64,000 nucleotides of DNA from Glaesserella australis (GTDB lineage Bacteria; Pseudomonadota; Gammaproteobacteria; Enterobacterales; Pasteurellaceae), in assembly GCF_003260095.1 (NCBI RefSeq), contig NZ_PTPX01000006.1, forward strand, positions 62,001 to 126,000, given 5' to 3'. Under the pieces are notes generated by a model. That model worked only from the letters and a program-made list of their open reading frames with translations. It had not been told where the DNA came from and searched no databases. Positions within the stretch are counted from its first letter, which is position 1. The number at the start of each line of letters is the position of its first letter. Shown piece after piece: positions 5,871 to 26,254 of this stretch. The translations under genes and the position numbers were made by a program.

Positions 5871-7088
5871 TTAGTTAATACCACAAGATGAGGCGGCAAC
5901 TTTGGCTTTCGCTTTAGAAAGGAAACGTTTTTCCCACCATACCACTGCAATTAAGCAAAGAATCAGTAATGCATAATTAACAAGTAAGCCACCTACTGCA
6001 CCAAATTCTTTGAGTAAGTTAAGTTTTTCATAATCAAGGGCGAGAACAGGTGCAAGATCGTCCCACATATACGCAAGTAACGTTGAGCCAATCACATTGC
6101 CCACGCCCACCCACATAAAGTGAACTTGCCCTTCCATTGAGCGATACATCCAACCTGTTTCACAGCCTCCAGCTAATACGATACCAAAACCGAACAGCAA
6201 TCCGCCGATAATAGCATTTGGACCTGCCCACATAATTTTAGGCGAAACACCCAGTTGAATATAAGAGAACACACCGATAGTGCCTACGATAATCCCGAAG
6301 ATAATCGCTTTTGCCATATAAGCACGCCCTGTTACCCATAAATCACGGAATGCAGAGGTAAAACAAATTTGAGCTCGTTCAATTAAAAGCCCGAATGCTA
6401 AACCGCATAACATCGCAAAACCGAATTTGACAGAATGTTGCATCACATAAAGTGAAGCGGCAAGATAAGCAAGGAAAATAACCATACCTAAACGGAAACG
6501 GCGTGTTGCTTGTTTTGGATCGGTTTCTTGCAGTTTTGCCGCACCTTTTTTCAGCTCCAGTTTGACACGGAACATTGGCAGTAGCGTGACTTTCACACCA
6601 ACATAAGTTCCCACCGCAGTAGCAATAGTAAAGAACCACGCGTGAACCGAAAATTGTGGAATCCCCGTAAACAATGAAGCCAAATTACAGCCCATTGCCA
6701 GACGAGCACCAAAACTTGCTAAAATGCCACCAATGACTGCTTGCACAATACGGCGTTTATGGGGTTGATTACGCCATTTTACGTTATTCGCCCAAAGTGC
6801 TGCAGAGATGCAACCAGCGAACATTCCTAAAATCATCACGCCATCAATACGGGTAAAAACTGTACCGTTCATTCCGATGATTTTATAGTAGCTCCATTCG
6901 CTCACATCAATGCCCAACGCCTGTAAAGCGTGACCGCCCCAACGTGTAAATTCGCCCGTTACCGCCCAATAAGTGCCAGTAATGCCGAAATAATAAGCAG
7001 AAAGAAGCCCAGCCGCGATAACTGCTGCAACGGGATTCCAATACTTAATCAGATAATTTTGTTTGAATTGTTGCCAAATCTCTAACAT
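5871..7088 (-). CDS. yedE: YedE/YeeE-family sulfur- or selenium-compound transporter
   Basis: This is a 405-residue polytopic inner-membrane protein with about ten hydrophobic segments arranged as two YeeE repeats. Each repeat has a conserved Cys-containing loop: GARLAMGCNLASLFTGIPQ and LAGGCETGWMYRSMEG. In the related thiosulfate channel TsuA such cysteines guide the sulfur compound through the membrane. The YedE subfamily is linked to selenium metabolism. The adjacent yedF-like sulfurtransferase fits a transporter/carrier pair. Substrate (thiosulfate or a selenium compound) is inferred, not shown. Confidence 0.85.
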   Translation of the reverse strand: MLEIWQQFKQNYLIKYWNPVAAVIAAGLLSAYYFGITGTYWAVTGEFTRWGGHALQALGIDVSEWSYYKIIGMNGTVFTRIDGVMILGMFAGCISAALWANNVKWRNQPHKRRIVQAVIGGILASFGARLAMGCNLASLFTGIPQFSVHAWFFTIATAVGTYVGVKVTLLPMFRVKLELKKGAAKLQETDPKQATRRFRLGMVIFLAYLAASLYVMQHSVKFGFAMLCGLAFGLLIERAQICFTSAFRDLWVTGRAYMAKAIIFGIIVGTIGVFSYIQLGVSPKIMWAGPNAIIGGLLFGFGIVLAGGCETGWMYRSMEGQVHFMWVGVGNVIGSTLLAYMWDDLAPVLALDYEKLNLLKEFGAVGGLLVNYALLILCLIAVVWWEKRFLSKAKAKVAASSCGIN

Positions 7089-19184: not shown

Positions 19185-19499
19185 TTATTCGGTTTGCAAC
19201 ATTGCGTTACGTAAAATCGAATTTAACAATGTTTGATAACCTTGTCCCGTTGCATTGGCTCTACTTTTTAGCCAATGCAACGTGTCTATATCAATTCTTA
19301 CCGTAATACGTTCTTTGACTGGTTTATAGAAAGGATTTCTTGCAGCTCCTTTCCAAAAATCATCATTAAGTTCCGCAATATCTGATGTATCAATTTGCGT
19401 ATCGTCTAATCGTGATAACTGGTTTAAACGAGCTTTAGTTGTACGATCTAAATTAGGGGCTTGCTTTAAATCAATAGTGCGTGTAACGATTTTGCTCAT
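19185..19499 (-). CDS. brnA: BrnA-family antitoxin
   Basis: This 104-residue protein is the antitoxin of a type II pair. The C-terminal ribbon-helix-helix domain is visible in RITVRIDIDTLHWLKSRA followed by GYQTLLNSILRNAM. ATG at 19499 gives the normal length; an upstream in-frame ATG would add 30 non-homologous residues inside brnT. It overlaps brnT by 29 bases. The usual BrnA role is to bind BrnT and repress the operon. Confidence 0.85.
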   Translation of the reverse strand: MSKIVTRTIDLKQAPNLDRTTKARLNQLSRLDDTQIDTSDIAELNDDFWKGAARNPFYKPVKERITVRIDIDTLHWLKSRANATGQGYQTLLNSILRNAMLQTE

Positions 19500-19767
19500 A
19501 CTGTTGTCTCTCTTTTTTAGTGGCAGGGCGGGCAGAAATAATACGAATATGCTCAATACCATCAATATCATTCCAAGTATGTGCAACAAGTAATATCACT
19601 TGATTAGCCGCCATACCAATTGCTTGCCAACGCATTTCGCCTTGTTCTATACGATCTTGTTTATGCCACATAAATTCATCATAAAAAACCAAAATCGCAT
19701 CATCAAAGCTTACTTTGTGTTTGAGCAGATTAGTTTTTGCTTTCTGCTCGTCCCAAGAAAATTTCAT
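19471..19767 (-). CDS. brnT: BrnT-family toxin
   Basis: This 98-residue protein is a RelE-fold ribonuclease toxin. The family signature is FSWDEQKAKTNLLKHKVSF near the N-terminus, then an EMRWQAIG segment and the C-terminal HIRIISARPATKKERQQYE containing the conserved Arg residues. It is the first gene of the brnT-brnA pair. A strong promoter with an internal inverted repeat lies just upstream, consistent with autoregulation. Confidence 0.87.
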   Translation of the reverse strand: MKFSWDEQKAKTNLLKHKVSFDDAILVFYDEFMWHKQDRIEQGEMRWQAIGMAANQVILLVAHTWNDIDGIEHIRIISARPATKKERQQYEQNRYTHY

Positions 19768-22399: not shown

Positions 22400-22475
22400 G
22401 TAGGGACACACTGCGTGTGTCCACTAAATGCTAAATAATATTGATAATTAACGGACACACACAGTGTGTCCCTAC
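22400..22475. repeat. REPIN-like doublet (two GTAG-headed hairpins, inverted)
   Basis: The left unit (22400-22422) is GTAG followed by GGACACAC-TGC-GTGTGTCC. The right unit (22453-22475) is its reverse complement with a single base difference. Each unit is a GTAG head plus a perfect 8-bp hairpin, the layout of REP sequences, and the two form a head-to-head pair 30 bases apart. It fills the zwf-pgl gap. Confidence 0.75.
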
Positions 22476-22484
22476 AAGGAATTT

Positions 22485-23183
22485 ATGAACACTATCACTT
22501 TCCCAACAGCCCAACATGCTGTTGAAAAAATCGCACAAGAATTTGTGTTATATAGCCAACTTAACCACCCTGTGCATATTTCGCTTTCAGGCGGAAGCAC
22601 ACCAAAATTGCTGTTTAAAACCCTTGCTCAAGAGCCATATAAAAGCCAAATTCAGTGGCAACATTTACATTTTTGGTGGGGCGATGATCGAATGGTGCCA
22701 CCACAAGATCCTGAAAGCAACTACGGCGAAGTGCAAAAATTACTGTTCGATCATATCCAAATCCCAGCGGAGAACATTCACCGTATTCGTGGCGAAGGGC
22801 CTGTCGAGCAAGAACTTGCAAGATTTTCGCAAGAACTGACCGCTTGTGTGCCTAACCTTGCGTTTGATTGGATTATTTTAGGAATGGGAACAGACGGACA
22901 TACCGCTTCACTTTTCCCACATCAAACGGATTTCAACGATCCAAATTTAGCCGTGATTGCAAAACACCCAGAAACAGGGCAAATCCGTATTTCCAAAACA
23001 GCAAAATTGATTGAGCAAGCAAAACGGATTACCTATTTAGTCACAGGGGCAAGTAAAGCGGAGATTTTAAAAGAACTTCAGACGACAGCAACGGAAAACT
23101 TGCCTTACCCAGCAGCAAAAATCAAAGCGAAAAATGGAATTACCGAGTGGTATTTGGATAAAGAAGCGGCGAAGTTGTTGTAG
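22485..23183 (+). CDS. pgl: 6-phosphogluconolactonase
   Basis: This enzyme hydrolyses 6-phosphogluconolactone, between the zwf and gnd steps. It has 232 residues of the DevB/SOL type. Signature motifs are SLSGGSTPKLLF, the HFWWGDDRMVPPQDPESN loop and GMGTDGHTASLFP. The start is ATG 22485 with AAGGAA 6 bases upstream; an earlier in-frame ATG lies within the repeat and is rejected. Confidence 0.95.
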   Translation: MNTITFPTAQHAVEKIAQEFVLYSQLNHPVHISLSGGSTPKLLFKTLAQEPYKSQIQWQHLHFWWGDDRMVPPQDPESNYGEVQKLLFDHIQIPAENIHRIRGEGPVEQELARFSQELTACVPNLAFDWIILGMGTDGHTASLFPHQTDFNDPNLAVIAKHPETGQIRISKTAKLIEQAKRITYLVTGASKAEILKELQTTATENLPYPAAKIKAKNGITEWYLDKEAAKLL

Positions 23184-23272
23184 GCTATAAAATCTAAATT
23201 TGCGATCTGTGTCGAAAAATTGGAAAAATGTGGTCGAGTTTGGAGAAGAAATGGTTCATTCTAGGTTTTTTA

Positions 23273-23291
23273 AGGTCACAAATTGTGACCT
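23273..23291. promoter_or_regulatory. Palindrome upstream of the ORF6N gene (candidate operator)
   Basis: AGGTCACAAATTGTGACCT is a perfect 9-1-9 palindrome 38 bases before the ATG at 23329. The core GGTCACAA-N-TTGTGACC recurs inside the gene. Confidence 0.6.
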
Positions 23292-23328
23292 CAAAATAAC
23301 AATTAAGAAAAAAACAAAGGAAAAAAAG

Positions 23329-24213
23329 ATGAACCATTTAGTACAAATTGCTCCAGAAATTGAACCACAAATTTTTACGATCCGAAATGTACAAGTAATG
23401 CTAGATGTCCATTTGGCAAGCCTTTACCAAGTGGAAACAAAGGTTTTCAACCAAGCGGTAAAACGAAATTTAGAACGTTTTCCCGATGAATTTCGGTTTC
23501 AATTAACAGAACAAGAGTGGGATTATTTGCGGTCACAATTTGTGACCGCAAATCAGAGTTCATATAGACGATTTTTACCCTACGCCTTTACCGAACAAGG
23601 CATTGCAATGCTTTCAGCCGTATTACGAAGTGAAGTCGCTGTTCAAGTCAGCATTAAAATTATGCAAGCCTTTGTGCAAATGCGGCATACATTGTTGAAT
23701 AATGTTGGTGTAATGCAACGGTTGGAAACGGTTGAACGTAAACAGATTGAAATGTCTGGGCAGTTGGAACAGGTGTTTTTAGCCTTAGAAAGTAATAAAC
23801 CACAAACACAGGGGATCTTTTTTGAAGGTGAAACCTTTAATGCTTATACCTTTGTGGCAGAGTTGGTGAGAAAGGCGAAATCATCGATTATTTTGATTGA
23901 TAATTATCTTGATGATACAGTGCTGACGTTATTTAATAAGCGCCAATCAGGTGTAGTAGTTACACTTTATACCAAAACAATCAGTAAACAATTAGAGCTA
24001 GATTTGGCACGTTATAATAGCCAATTTGAACCGATAGCAATAAAACAATTTAGTAAATCACACGACCGATTTTTAATTTTAGACCGCGCTGAGCTTTACC
24101 ATATCGGTGCATCATTAAAAGATTTAGGCAAAAAATGGTTTGCTTTTTCTAAAATGGATTTATCCACAAGTAGAATTTTAGAGCAGTTAGAGAGTGAAAA
24201 TGTTGATGATTGA
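23329..24213 (+). CDS. ORF6N-domain protein with C-terminal HDRFL (PLD-like) domain
   Basis: This 294-residue protein has an N-terminal ORF6N DNA-binding domain (about 10-100: IFTIRNVQVMLDVHLASLYQ, then RFPDEFRFQL and LPYAFTEQGIAMLSAVL). A linker with helical character follows, then a C-terminal domain with SHDRFLILD and ELYHIGASLKDLGKKWFAF. ORF6N/KilA-N proteins are common in phages and islands and are thought to be DNA-binding regulators. ATG at 23329 has AAAGGA before it; a longer frame from 23200 is rejected. Residues 66-75 are encoded by a perfect 27-base palindrome. It lies with the next gene between pgl and gnd and looks acquired. Confidence 0.8.
   Translation: MNHLVQIAPEIEPQIFTIRNVQVMLDVHLASLYQVETKVFNQAVKRNLERFPDEFRFQLTEQEWDYLRSQFVTANQSSYRRFLPYAFTEQGIAMLSAVLRSEVAVQVSIKIMQAFVQMRHTLLNNVGVMQRLETVERKQIEMSGQLEQVFLALESNKPQTQGIFFEGETFNAYTFVAELVRKAKSSIILIDNYLDDTVLTLFNKRQSGVVVTLYTKTISKQLELDLARYNSQFEPIAIKQFSKSHDRFLILDRAELYHIGASLKDLGKKWFAFSKMDLSTSRILEQLESENVDD
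23526..23552. repeat. Perfect palindrome inside the ORF6N coding sequence
   Basis: Thirteen-base arms flank one central T; the core GGTCACAATTTGTGACC matches the upstream palindrome except at the centre. It encodes part of LRSQFVTAN. Confidence 0.85.
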
Positions 24214-24274
24214 ATTTGGAATAAAATCATTGTTAGCTTCTAAAATAATTATGGGAATTAAAAAGGTTTAAAAT

Positions 24275-24706
24275 ATGAAAAAAGCATTATTATTTAGTTT
24301 TTCTTTAATTCTATCAGCGTGTAGTTCTGTACAAAATACGCAAAGTACATTTATCGATCCTTATCCACAAATTACATCAATTCAAGATTTACCACAGGAA
24401 CATCGTTACAAGCCAAAACAATGTTCTCCAAAATTTGATAAAAATGGGGAACTTGATGAAGTTGTATCAAATGGAAGAAGAATTAAAGCGAAAATAAAAA
24501 ATCATTGTATTGATGAAGAAGTTTTTATTTATCATCAAAATGGTCAGCTACATTCTAACACCCCTTTAGTCAATGGATTAGCAGAAGGCTGGTCTAATGG
24601 ATACACTATGGACGGTGTGTTGAGAACTCGAATTTTATATCAAAAAGGTGAAACTAAACTTATTCAGGTCTATCACAATGGTCAATTAGTGAAAGAAATT
24701 AAATAA
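24275..24706 (+). CDS. Lipoprotein with MORN/YwqK-like repeats
   Basis: This 143-residue protein has a lipobox ILSAC (Cys16) and so should be lipidated. The C-terminal half contains two to three repeats of the Y-x-NGQL-x-G-x-x-x-G type (IYHQNGQLHSNTPLVNGLAEG, then QVYHNGQL), like MORN-variant proteins of the YwqK class. Such proteins sometimes serve as immunity proteins or surface scaffolds, but nothing here shows that. It is AT-rich relative to zwf and gnd. Function unknown. Confidence 0.65.
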   Translation: MKKALLFSFSLILSACSSVQNTQSTFIDPYPQITSIQDLPQEHRYKPKQCSPKFDKNGELDEVVSNGRRIKAKIKNHCIDEEVFIYHQNGQLHSNTPLVNGLAEGWSNGYTMDGVLRTRILYQKGETKLIQVYHNGQLVKEIK

Positions 24707-24799
24707 ACATAAGTGGTAGAAATCTATCCAAAAATTTATCAAGCGGTCAAGTTCCCAATATTTTCCGCAACAAATTCAACAATCCAACAGGAGCAAAAA

Positions 24800-26254
24800 A
24801 TGTCAGTAAAAGGCGATATCGGCGTTATCGGTTTAGCGGTAATGGGTCAGAACCTTATTTTAAATATGAACGATAACGGCTTTAAAGTCGTGGCGTATAA
24901 CCGTACCACATCAAAAGTGGACGAGTTTTTAGAAGGTGCGGCAAAAGGCACGAACATTATCGGGGCATATTCGTTAGAAGATTTAGCGAATAAATTAGAA
25001 AAACCACGCAAAGTGATGTTAATGGTGCGTGCGGGCGAAGTGGTTGATCAATTTATCGATGCATTATTACCGCACTTAGAGCAAGGCGACATCATCATTG
25101 ACGGCGGTAACTCAAACTACCCAGACACCAACCGCCGTGTAAAAGCATTGGCGGAGAAAGGCATTCGCTTTATCGGCTCGGGTGTTTCGGGCGGTGAAGA
25201 AGGTGCGCGTCACGGACCTTCTATTATGCCGGGCGGTAATGAAGAAGCGTGGCAATATGTCAAACCAATTTTCCAAGCGATTTCAGCGAAAACTGACAAA
25301 GGCGAGCCTTGCTGTGACTGGGTGGGCAAAGAAGGGGCAGGTCACTTTGTGAAAATGGTTCACAACGGGATCGAATACGGCGATATGCAGTTAATCTGTG
25401 AAGCTTACCAATTCTTAAAAGACGGTTTAGGTTTAAGCTACGATGAAATGCAAGCTATTTTCGCAGAATGGAAGAAAACCGAGTTAGATAGCTATCTGAT
25501 TGATATTACAACAGATATTTTAGGCTACAAAGACACAGACGGCACGCCGTTAGTGGAAAAAATCCTTGATACCGCAGGTCAAAAAGGTACAGGTAAATGG
25601 ACGGGGATCAACGCTTTAGATTTCGGTATTCCATTAACTTTAATCACCGAGTCCGTATTCGCTCGCTGCGTTTCATCTTTCAAAGATCAACGCGTGGCAG
25701 CGTCTCAGCTCTTCAACAAAACTATCGGCAAAGTAGAAGGTGATAAAAAAGTATGGATTGAAGCGGTACGCAAAGCGTTATTGGCATCAAAAATTATCTC
25801 TTACGCACAAGGCTTTATGCTCATTCGTGAAGCCTCAGAAAACTTCGGTTGGGACATCAACTACGGCGCAACCGCCTTGTTATGGCGTGAAGGTTGTATC
25901 ATTCGCAGCCGTTTCTTAGGCAACATTCGTGATGCGTACGAAGCGAATCCAGACTTAATCTTCTTAGGTTCAGATGCGTACTTCAAAGGCATTTTAGAGA
26001 ACGCATTAAGCGACTGGCGTAAAGTGGTAGCGAAATCGATTGAAGTGGGTATCCCAATGCCGTGTATGGCATCTGCGATTACCTTCTTAGATGGTTATAC
26101 ATCAGATCGCTTACCGGCAAACTTACTTCAAGCTCAACGTGACTACTTCGGTGCACATACTTACGAACGTACCGACAAACCACGTGGTGAGTTCTTCCAC
26201 ACAAATTGGACAGGACGTGGCGGGAATACAGCATCAACGACGTATGATGTGTAA
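24800..26254 (+). CDS. gnd: 6-phosphogluconate dehydrogenase, decarboxylating
   Basis: This enzyme oxidises 6-phosphogluconate to ribulose-5-phosphate with NADP. It has 484 residues. Motifs are GLAVMGQNLILN (nucleotide binding), IIDGGNSNYPDT, SGVSGGEEGARHGPSIMPGG and VKMVHNGIEYGDMQ. The start is ATG 24800 with CAGGAG before it; an upstream in-frame start near 24713 is rejected. It closes the zwf-pgl-gnd set. Confidence 0.96.
   Translation: MSVKGDIGVIGLAVMGQNLILNMNDNGFKVVAYNRTTSKVDEFLEGAAKGTNIIGAYSLEDLANKLEKPRKVMLMVRAGEVVDQFIDALLPHLEQGDIIIDGGNSNYPDTNRRVKALAEKGIRFIGSGVSGGEEGARHGPSIMPGGNEEAWQYVKPIFQAISAKTDKGEPCCDWVGKEGAGHFVKMVHNGIEYGDMQLICEAYQFLKDGLGLSYDEMQAIFAEWKKTELDSYLIDITTDILGYKDTDGTPLVEKILDTAGQKGTGKWTGINALDFGIPLTLITESVFARCVSSFKDQRVAASQLFNKTIGKVEGDKKVWIEAVRKALLASKIISYAQGFMLIREASENFGWDINYGATALLWREGCIIRSRFLGNIRDAYEANPDLIFLGSDAYFKGILENALSDWRKVVAKSIEVGIPMPCMASAITFLDGYTSDRLPANLLQAQRDYFGAHTYERTDKPRGEFFHTNWTGRGGNTASTTYDV

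Follow-up and report, generated by a model that had tools for sequence, protein, structure and literature searches.

A palindrome conserved at the DNA level in ORF6N-domain genes is a candidate autoregulatory site

Introduction

The E. coli purR gene has two palindromic operators, one of them in its leader or coding part, and is subject to autorepression of the roadblock type. PurR belongs to the LacI family and has a regulon. Palindromic DNA is also found within open reading frames as the Rickettsia palindromic elements, which insert within a single genus into numerous unrelated genes. In plasmids of the repABC type, RepC starts replication, and the origin at which it acts is located in the sequence that encodes RepC (PMC2783167). 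The REP elements associated with RAYT transposases are short, high-copy, extragenic palindromes (PMC3733652). The mitochondria of Nematomorpha have coding palindromes, which are perfect inverted repeats in conserved coding sequence (PMC6649704).

Here, we describe a palindrome that stands both before and inside an ORF6N-domain gene of Glaesserella australis. According to Pfam and PHROG, ORF6N belongs to the phage anti-repressor/DNA-binding group. A description of the palindrome was not found in the open-licence papers searched. The window is the whole stretch of DNA that was analysed, with a length of 64 kb.

Results

The palindrome pair in Glaesserella australis

The 17-base core GGTCACAANTTGTGACC occurs twice in the window (Table 1). 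The two matches are free of mismatches, whereas only 0.19 would be expected even with three mismatches allowed. In the 2.3-Mb genome, the pair comprises all copies at up to two mismatches, so that there is no regulon elsewhere at this threshold, and the reversed control pattern has zero matches. The internal palindrome, ATTTGCGGTCACAA-T-TTGTGACCGCAAAT, has 14 of 15 possible pairs, compared to 8.0 expected after synonymous shuffling (p<=1/301). The earlier note had reported the same palindrome before and inside the gene, and both sites are indeed exact, with 38 bases between the end of the upstream core and the ATG. The internal arms, which it had given as 13 bases, are 14 bases long around a single central base, and the genome search that it suggested yielded nothing beyond the pair. 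A simple scan of positions 23100-23700 detected no sigma-70-like promoter. The same region contains no GC-rich stem followed by a T run, and the palindromes can therefore be rejected as intrinsic terminators.

Table 1. Positions of the palindromes, the ORF6N gene and other features in the window
Feature	Position	Strand	Remarks
Upstream palindrome AGGTCACAAATTGTGACCT	23273-23291	no strand	core 23274-23290; perfect 9-base arms
Upstream palindrome, one A-C mismatch allowed	23268-23296		14-base arms, TTTTAAGGTCACAA-A-TTGTGACCTCAAAA
ORF6N-domain gene, 294 aa (P0001)	23329..24213	+	Pfam PF10543, PHROG, AlphaFold/Foldseek
Internal palindrome ATTTGCGGTCACAATTTGTGACCGCAAAT	23525-23553	no strand	perfect 29 bp, codons 66-75; core 23531-23547
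PLD-like half of the gene	23800-24200		HDRF-x-x-x-D (invariant) and GASLKDLGKKWFAFSK
pgl	22464-23183
gnd	24713-26254
pgl-gnd interval	23184-24712		insertion hot spot in Pasteurellaceae (loci L276-L305)
Two overlapping ORFs	19185-19767	-	resemble a BrnT/BrnA toxin-antitoxin pair (by eye)

The protein and its locus

The N-terminal ORF6N domain of the protein (residues 14-98) matches PF10543 with E = 4.3e-33 and 113.9 bits, compared to a curated cut-off of 27.8, and the PHROG matches are to anti-repressor families. The protein has no sequence relatives in the PDB. An AlphaFold model, built with 30 sequences, has a mean pLDDT of 73.5. The residues encoded by the internal palindrome form the end of the helix 61-70 and the first part of a loop that is modelled with low confidence. 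Residues 72-78 of this loop have pLDDT values below 50, and its length varies among relatives. The peptide LRSQ-VT-S is conserved. Judging from the model, the palindrome lies at a spot where requirements of the DNA can be tolerated by the protein.

The C-terminal part (residues ~160-290) has a PLD-like fold of moderate model quality (pLDDT 84-93 across most of it), for which Foldseek finds TrmBL2, NucT, Zucchini and FAM83 (E 3e-5 to 2e-3); vaccinia F13 is also among the closest structures. The canonical catalytic motif HxKx4D is absent from the protein, which has HDRFLILD (HxRx4D) instead. H245, R247 and D252 are invariant among 30 sequences. PLD-like catalysis is uncertain because the lysine is replaced by arginine.

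The gene lies between pgl and gnd, and is found at this spot in four genera (G000, G048, G093, G135). Other Pasteurellaceae have a DUF1016 nuclease, an MFS transporter, a lipoprotein or other genes there. A search of 140 Pasteurellaceae genomes gave 13 with a match to the palindrome at no more than one mismatch, and several genomes that lack an ORF6N gene have a match between pgl and gnd. In one of them (G100, locus L166, ~2267-2505), two palindromes lie beside pieces of an ORF6N relic that are collinear with the window gene, and an intact ORF6N gene is missing. At least in this genome, the pgl-gnd palindromes are what remains of a decayed ORF6N gene, and not an independent integration site.

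Occurrence in ORF6N genes of other phyla

A protein search of genome contigs gave 80 relatives from Bacteroidota, spirochaetes, archaea, Campylobacterota and others. In most of them, the corresponding codons contain a long palindrome, whose arms frequently exceed those of the window gene in length. In order to avoid selection by similarity to the window, 69 distinct Bacteroidota ORF6N genes were picked by Pfam alone. At least seven of eight arm pairs are present in 53 of them and at least six of eight in 57, and the palindrome lies in the loop that follows the same helix as in the window gene. A larger set comprised 134 genes from many phyla with less than 80% protein identity to each other, of which between 101 and all 134 were used in the tests described below. 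The internal site is present in 112/134 genes, which is not an unbiased rate because part of the set was retrieved by similarity, and some of the loci by the pattern itself; 25/134 genes have an upstream copy. The palindrome is thus a family-wide feature of ORF6N genes. It is also found in genes without the PLD-like part (open frames of ~170-200 aa), and therefore goes with the ORF6N domain and not with the PLD-like part.

The density of sites per kb is 4.69 at the internal location, 0.68 upstream, 0.19 downstream and 0.02 in the remaining coding sequence. Upstream, in the 300 bases before the gene, the density is thus 34 times that of the remaining coding sequence. Non-coding copies precede about a fifth of the genes, mostly at a distance of 20-110 bp: 26 of 33 upstream sites lie between -20 and -110 from the gene start, and the window gene falls in the same position class. 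Some genes have copies downstream as well, and tandem copies 34-42 bp apart are found upstream, inside and downstream of genes. At one locus (L337, -158 to -56), four palindromes of four different classes precede an ORF6N gene with an exact spacing of 34 bases.

The exact pattern GGTCRCAANTTGYGACC was counted 39 times in 247 Bacteroidota genomes, in which its reversed control does not occur. By coordinates, 35 of the 39 copies are inside an ORF6N match or closer than 250 bp to one. The pattern is present in 26/74 genomes with ORF6N, but only in 1/173 without (Fisher p = 1e-14). The link to ORF6N is therefore nearly exclusive. The four exceptions are intergenic and away from ORF6N genes (G317, G274, G360), and a restriction-modification island harbours two of them. 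A dispersed repeat (REP/RPE) is ruled out by the genome counts, and 5426 E. coli genomes contain a single weak match.

Palindromes without an ORF6N gene were seen in type I restriction-modification islands (L386 of G360, at 1920 and 9669; L389 of G169, at 5899), with hsdS, RhuM-like genes, an AAA ATPase and a DUF1016 fragment nearby. A perfect palindrome at position 2847 of L388 is ~117 bases away from a Y1_Tnp (IS200-like/RAYT-like) gene. In many phage contigs (L168-L245), the core GGTCRCAANTTGYGACC is found in intergenic hairpins that are followed by T runs, some of which have a G-T pair on the T-run strand, as intrinsic terminators would show. These hairpins are probably a different thing from the ORF6N palindrome.

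Conservation of the DNA symmetry

The arms of a site are complementary at distance 4 from the centre in 92% of sites, compared to 34% if the arms of different genes are combined at random. The corresponding values are 91% and 52% at distance 10, and 89% and 51% at distance 13. These positions are outside those used in site selection. Compensatory changes are found at distances 4, 5, 10 and 13, and the covariation signal fades near 15 bp from the centre. Perfect symmetry often spans 26-33 bp. When synonymous codons are shuffled within each gene, 6.6 of 15 pairs are expected, whereas 12.8 are observed. For sites chosen by their core only, the outer arms have 631 pairs instead of the expected 294 (z = 30, synonymous shuffle).

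In 11 genes, the palindrome is at the same place in another reading frame, one base over, so that GTC ACA AAT TGT GAC (VTNCD) replaces TCA CAA TTT GTG ACC (SQFVT), and the peptide reads LVTNCDR instead of the usual LRSQFVT. The arms covary in this frame also. In both domain halves, the nearest relatives of these genes are genes with the usual frame. In a loop-free tree, which is short and weakly supported, the frames are scattered (9 changes, compared to 9-11 when shuffled), and so are the loop types. As the palindrome is kept despite changed amino acids and a changed reading frame, the DNA symmetry itself seems to matter. Judged by the arm statistics, it is conserved at this position of ORF6N genes across phyla.

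The variable positions (notably 4, 5, 10 and 13) are complementary within a site and vary from one site to another in a single gene, with mixed classes in L013, L063, L332 and L337. Nevertheless, the classes of upstream and internal sites agree within genes more often than expected (0.42 vs 0.29, p = 0.01), and the 29-mers of upstream or downstream copies resemble the internal copy of the same gene more than those of other genes (p = 0.003). Since this agreement exists, the mixed classes are compatible with an operator, and also with a DNA hairpin or recombination site or with upkeep by template switching.

Discussion

From the sequence comparisons, the palindrome is most likely the ORF6N protein's own control site. 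More specifically, it could be an autoregulatory operator in double-stranded DNA, to which we assign a probability of about one half. We infer that the ORF6N protein binds the site, dimerises and acts as a repressor. As a dimer, it would bind the 27-31 bp dyad, with a half-site of roughly YTTRAGGTCRCAA, before and inside its own gene, and thereby limit transcription of this gene. The internal site by itself would be a roadblock to RNA polymerase. In genes that also have the upstream copy, such as the window gene, promoter occlusion or a loop of ~257 bp could be added. Such self-limitation would suit a gene that repeatedly enters new hosts, as its control site is carried within the coding sequence.

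An operator is favoured by the near-exclusive link to ORF6N genes, by the constraint at the DNA level, which persists in the second reading frame, by the resemblance between copies of one gene, by the upstream copies, which are placed where a control site would be, by the membership of ORF6N in the anti-repressor/DNA-binding group, by the similarity of the C-terminal fold to TrmB-type regulators, and by the absence of an RNA wobble signature. Several observations point the other way. Perfect symmetry over 26-33 bp exceeds that of most operators, the simple scan gave no sigma-70-like promoter near the window sites, some exact sites are located away from ORF6N genes, and an upstream copy was found in a minority of genes. 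The mixed classes are the weak point: a homodimer of fixed specificity would select one class, and a tolerant one would not need the symmetry that is nonetheless kept within each site (L013, L337, L332). The scan of homologous genes proposed in the earlier note found the palindromes, and the objection that homologues might lack both of them therefore falls away. Its suggestion of autoregulation is strengthened insofar as the sites are tied to ORF6N, conserved at the DNA level and, upstream, placed like control sites. This does not apply to looping between two sites, which is not a general mechanism because so few genes have the upstream copy.

Instead of an operator, the palindrome could be a DNA structure, namely a cruciform or a single-strand hairpin, at which the ORF6N protein or another enzyme moves, swaps or duplicates ORF6N genes or the loop. 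This would account for complementary arms of varying sequence, for different classes inside one gene, for the tandem copies, for the scatter of loop types and frames over the tree, for the presence of the gene at one chromosomal spot in four genera, and for the PLD-like C-terminus. However, the copies are not dispersed in genomes, many palindrome-bearing ORF6N genes lack the PLD-like part, and neither a junction nor an excised form was seen. Identities of the N- and C-terminal halves are weakly correlated (r = 0.40), with no clean breakpoint or convincing mosaic, and a recombination breakpoint at the palindrome is rejected on these grounds. Such a recombination site is thus somewhat unlikely. 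More radically, ORF6N genes could be self-targeting mobile units. The DNA that encodes part of the DNA-binding domain would then itself be a cruciform- or hairpin-prone dyad. The protein would recognise this dyad whatever its exact sequence, the gene or its loop would thereby be moved, exchanged or duplicated, and the DNA would be selected jointly as code and substrate. We regard this as doubtful.

Nearly all sites lie in a leader or a coding region, and the internal site of the window gene has a predicted RNA fold of -19.2 kcal/mol (z -6.5), as would befit an mRNA hairpin, perhaps protein-bound, that slows translation or alters mRNA stability. As the hairpins are predicted to be stable whether formed by RNA or by DNA, stability does not decide between the two. 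RNA stems tolerate G-U pairs, yet G-T combinations are depleted (26 vs 144 expected, ratio 0.18) as are A-C combinations (51 vs 210, ratio 0.24). Measured against the synonymous expectation, G-T thus has no advantage over A-C, and RNA pairing is not indicated. As the sense RNA shows no wobble tolerance, and some copies lie downstream of the gene, a structured mRNA element is distinctly unlikely. Symmetry could also be maintained by mutation, without selection, if the codons for LRSQxVTSS provide a near-palindrome that template switching during replication repairs to a perfect one. Quasipalindrome correction is a known mechanism (PMC8794818, PMC7202029), and it would make arms complementary whatever their sequence, as is observed. 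However, palindromes with this core are all but absent from other parts of these genes (0.02 per kb) and of the genomes, and the copies in the second frame and in non-coding DNA lack the LRSQxVTSS starting motif, which makes this explanation improbable. The conserved LRSQ-VT-S peptide might simply happen to have symmetrical codons, but this is rejected by the synonymous shuffles (z 30-40), the alternative frame and the non-coding copies, and chance or codon bias deserves next to no credence.

The near-ubiquitous internal dyad offers a ready, testable candidate target for the widespread ORF6N domain. Moreover, it appears to be an unusually clear case of selection at the DNA level that overrides codon choice, and even the reading frame, in a conserved domain across phyla, and this bears on the question of how mobile regulators carry their own control.

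Among the systems compared here, the Nematomorpha repeats are much longer, are located in respiratory genes and have no link to a DNA-binding product. The Rickettsia palindromic elements share the location within open reading frames, but the ORF6N palindrome is found in one gene family, at one position and in many phyla. With REP elements it has in common the short palindromes with variable arms, and one copy lies beside a Y1_Tnp gene. In contrast to these, it has a copy number of one or two per genome and is mostly located within genes of a single family; of the two copies in the G. australis genome, one is intragenic. The similarity to repABC plasmids lies in a DNA-binding protein with a target within its own gene, so that gene and site travel together, but the ORF6N gene is chromosomal and shows no sign of a replicon. 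In purR, as in the window gene, the same palindromic site is found before and within the gene's own transcribed sequence. Differently from purR, the ORF6N site is almost confined to its own gene, is located inside the coding sequence of the DNA-binding domain, and is kept across phyla and in two frames. By analogy, the ORF6N palindrome pair may work most like the paired operators of purR.
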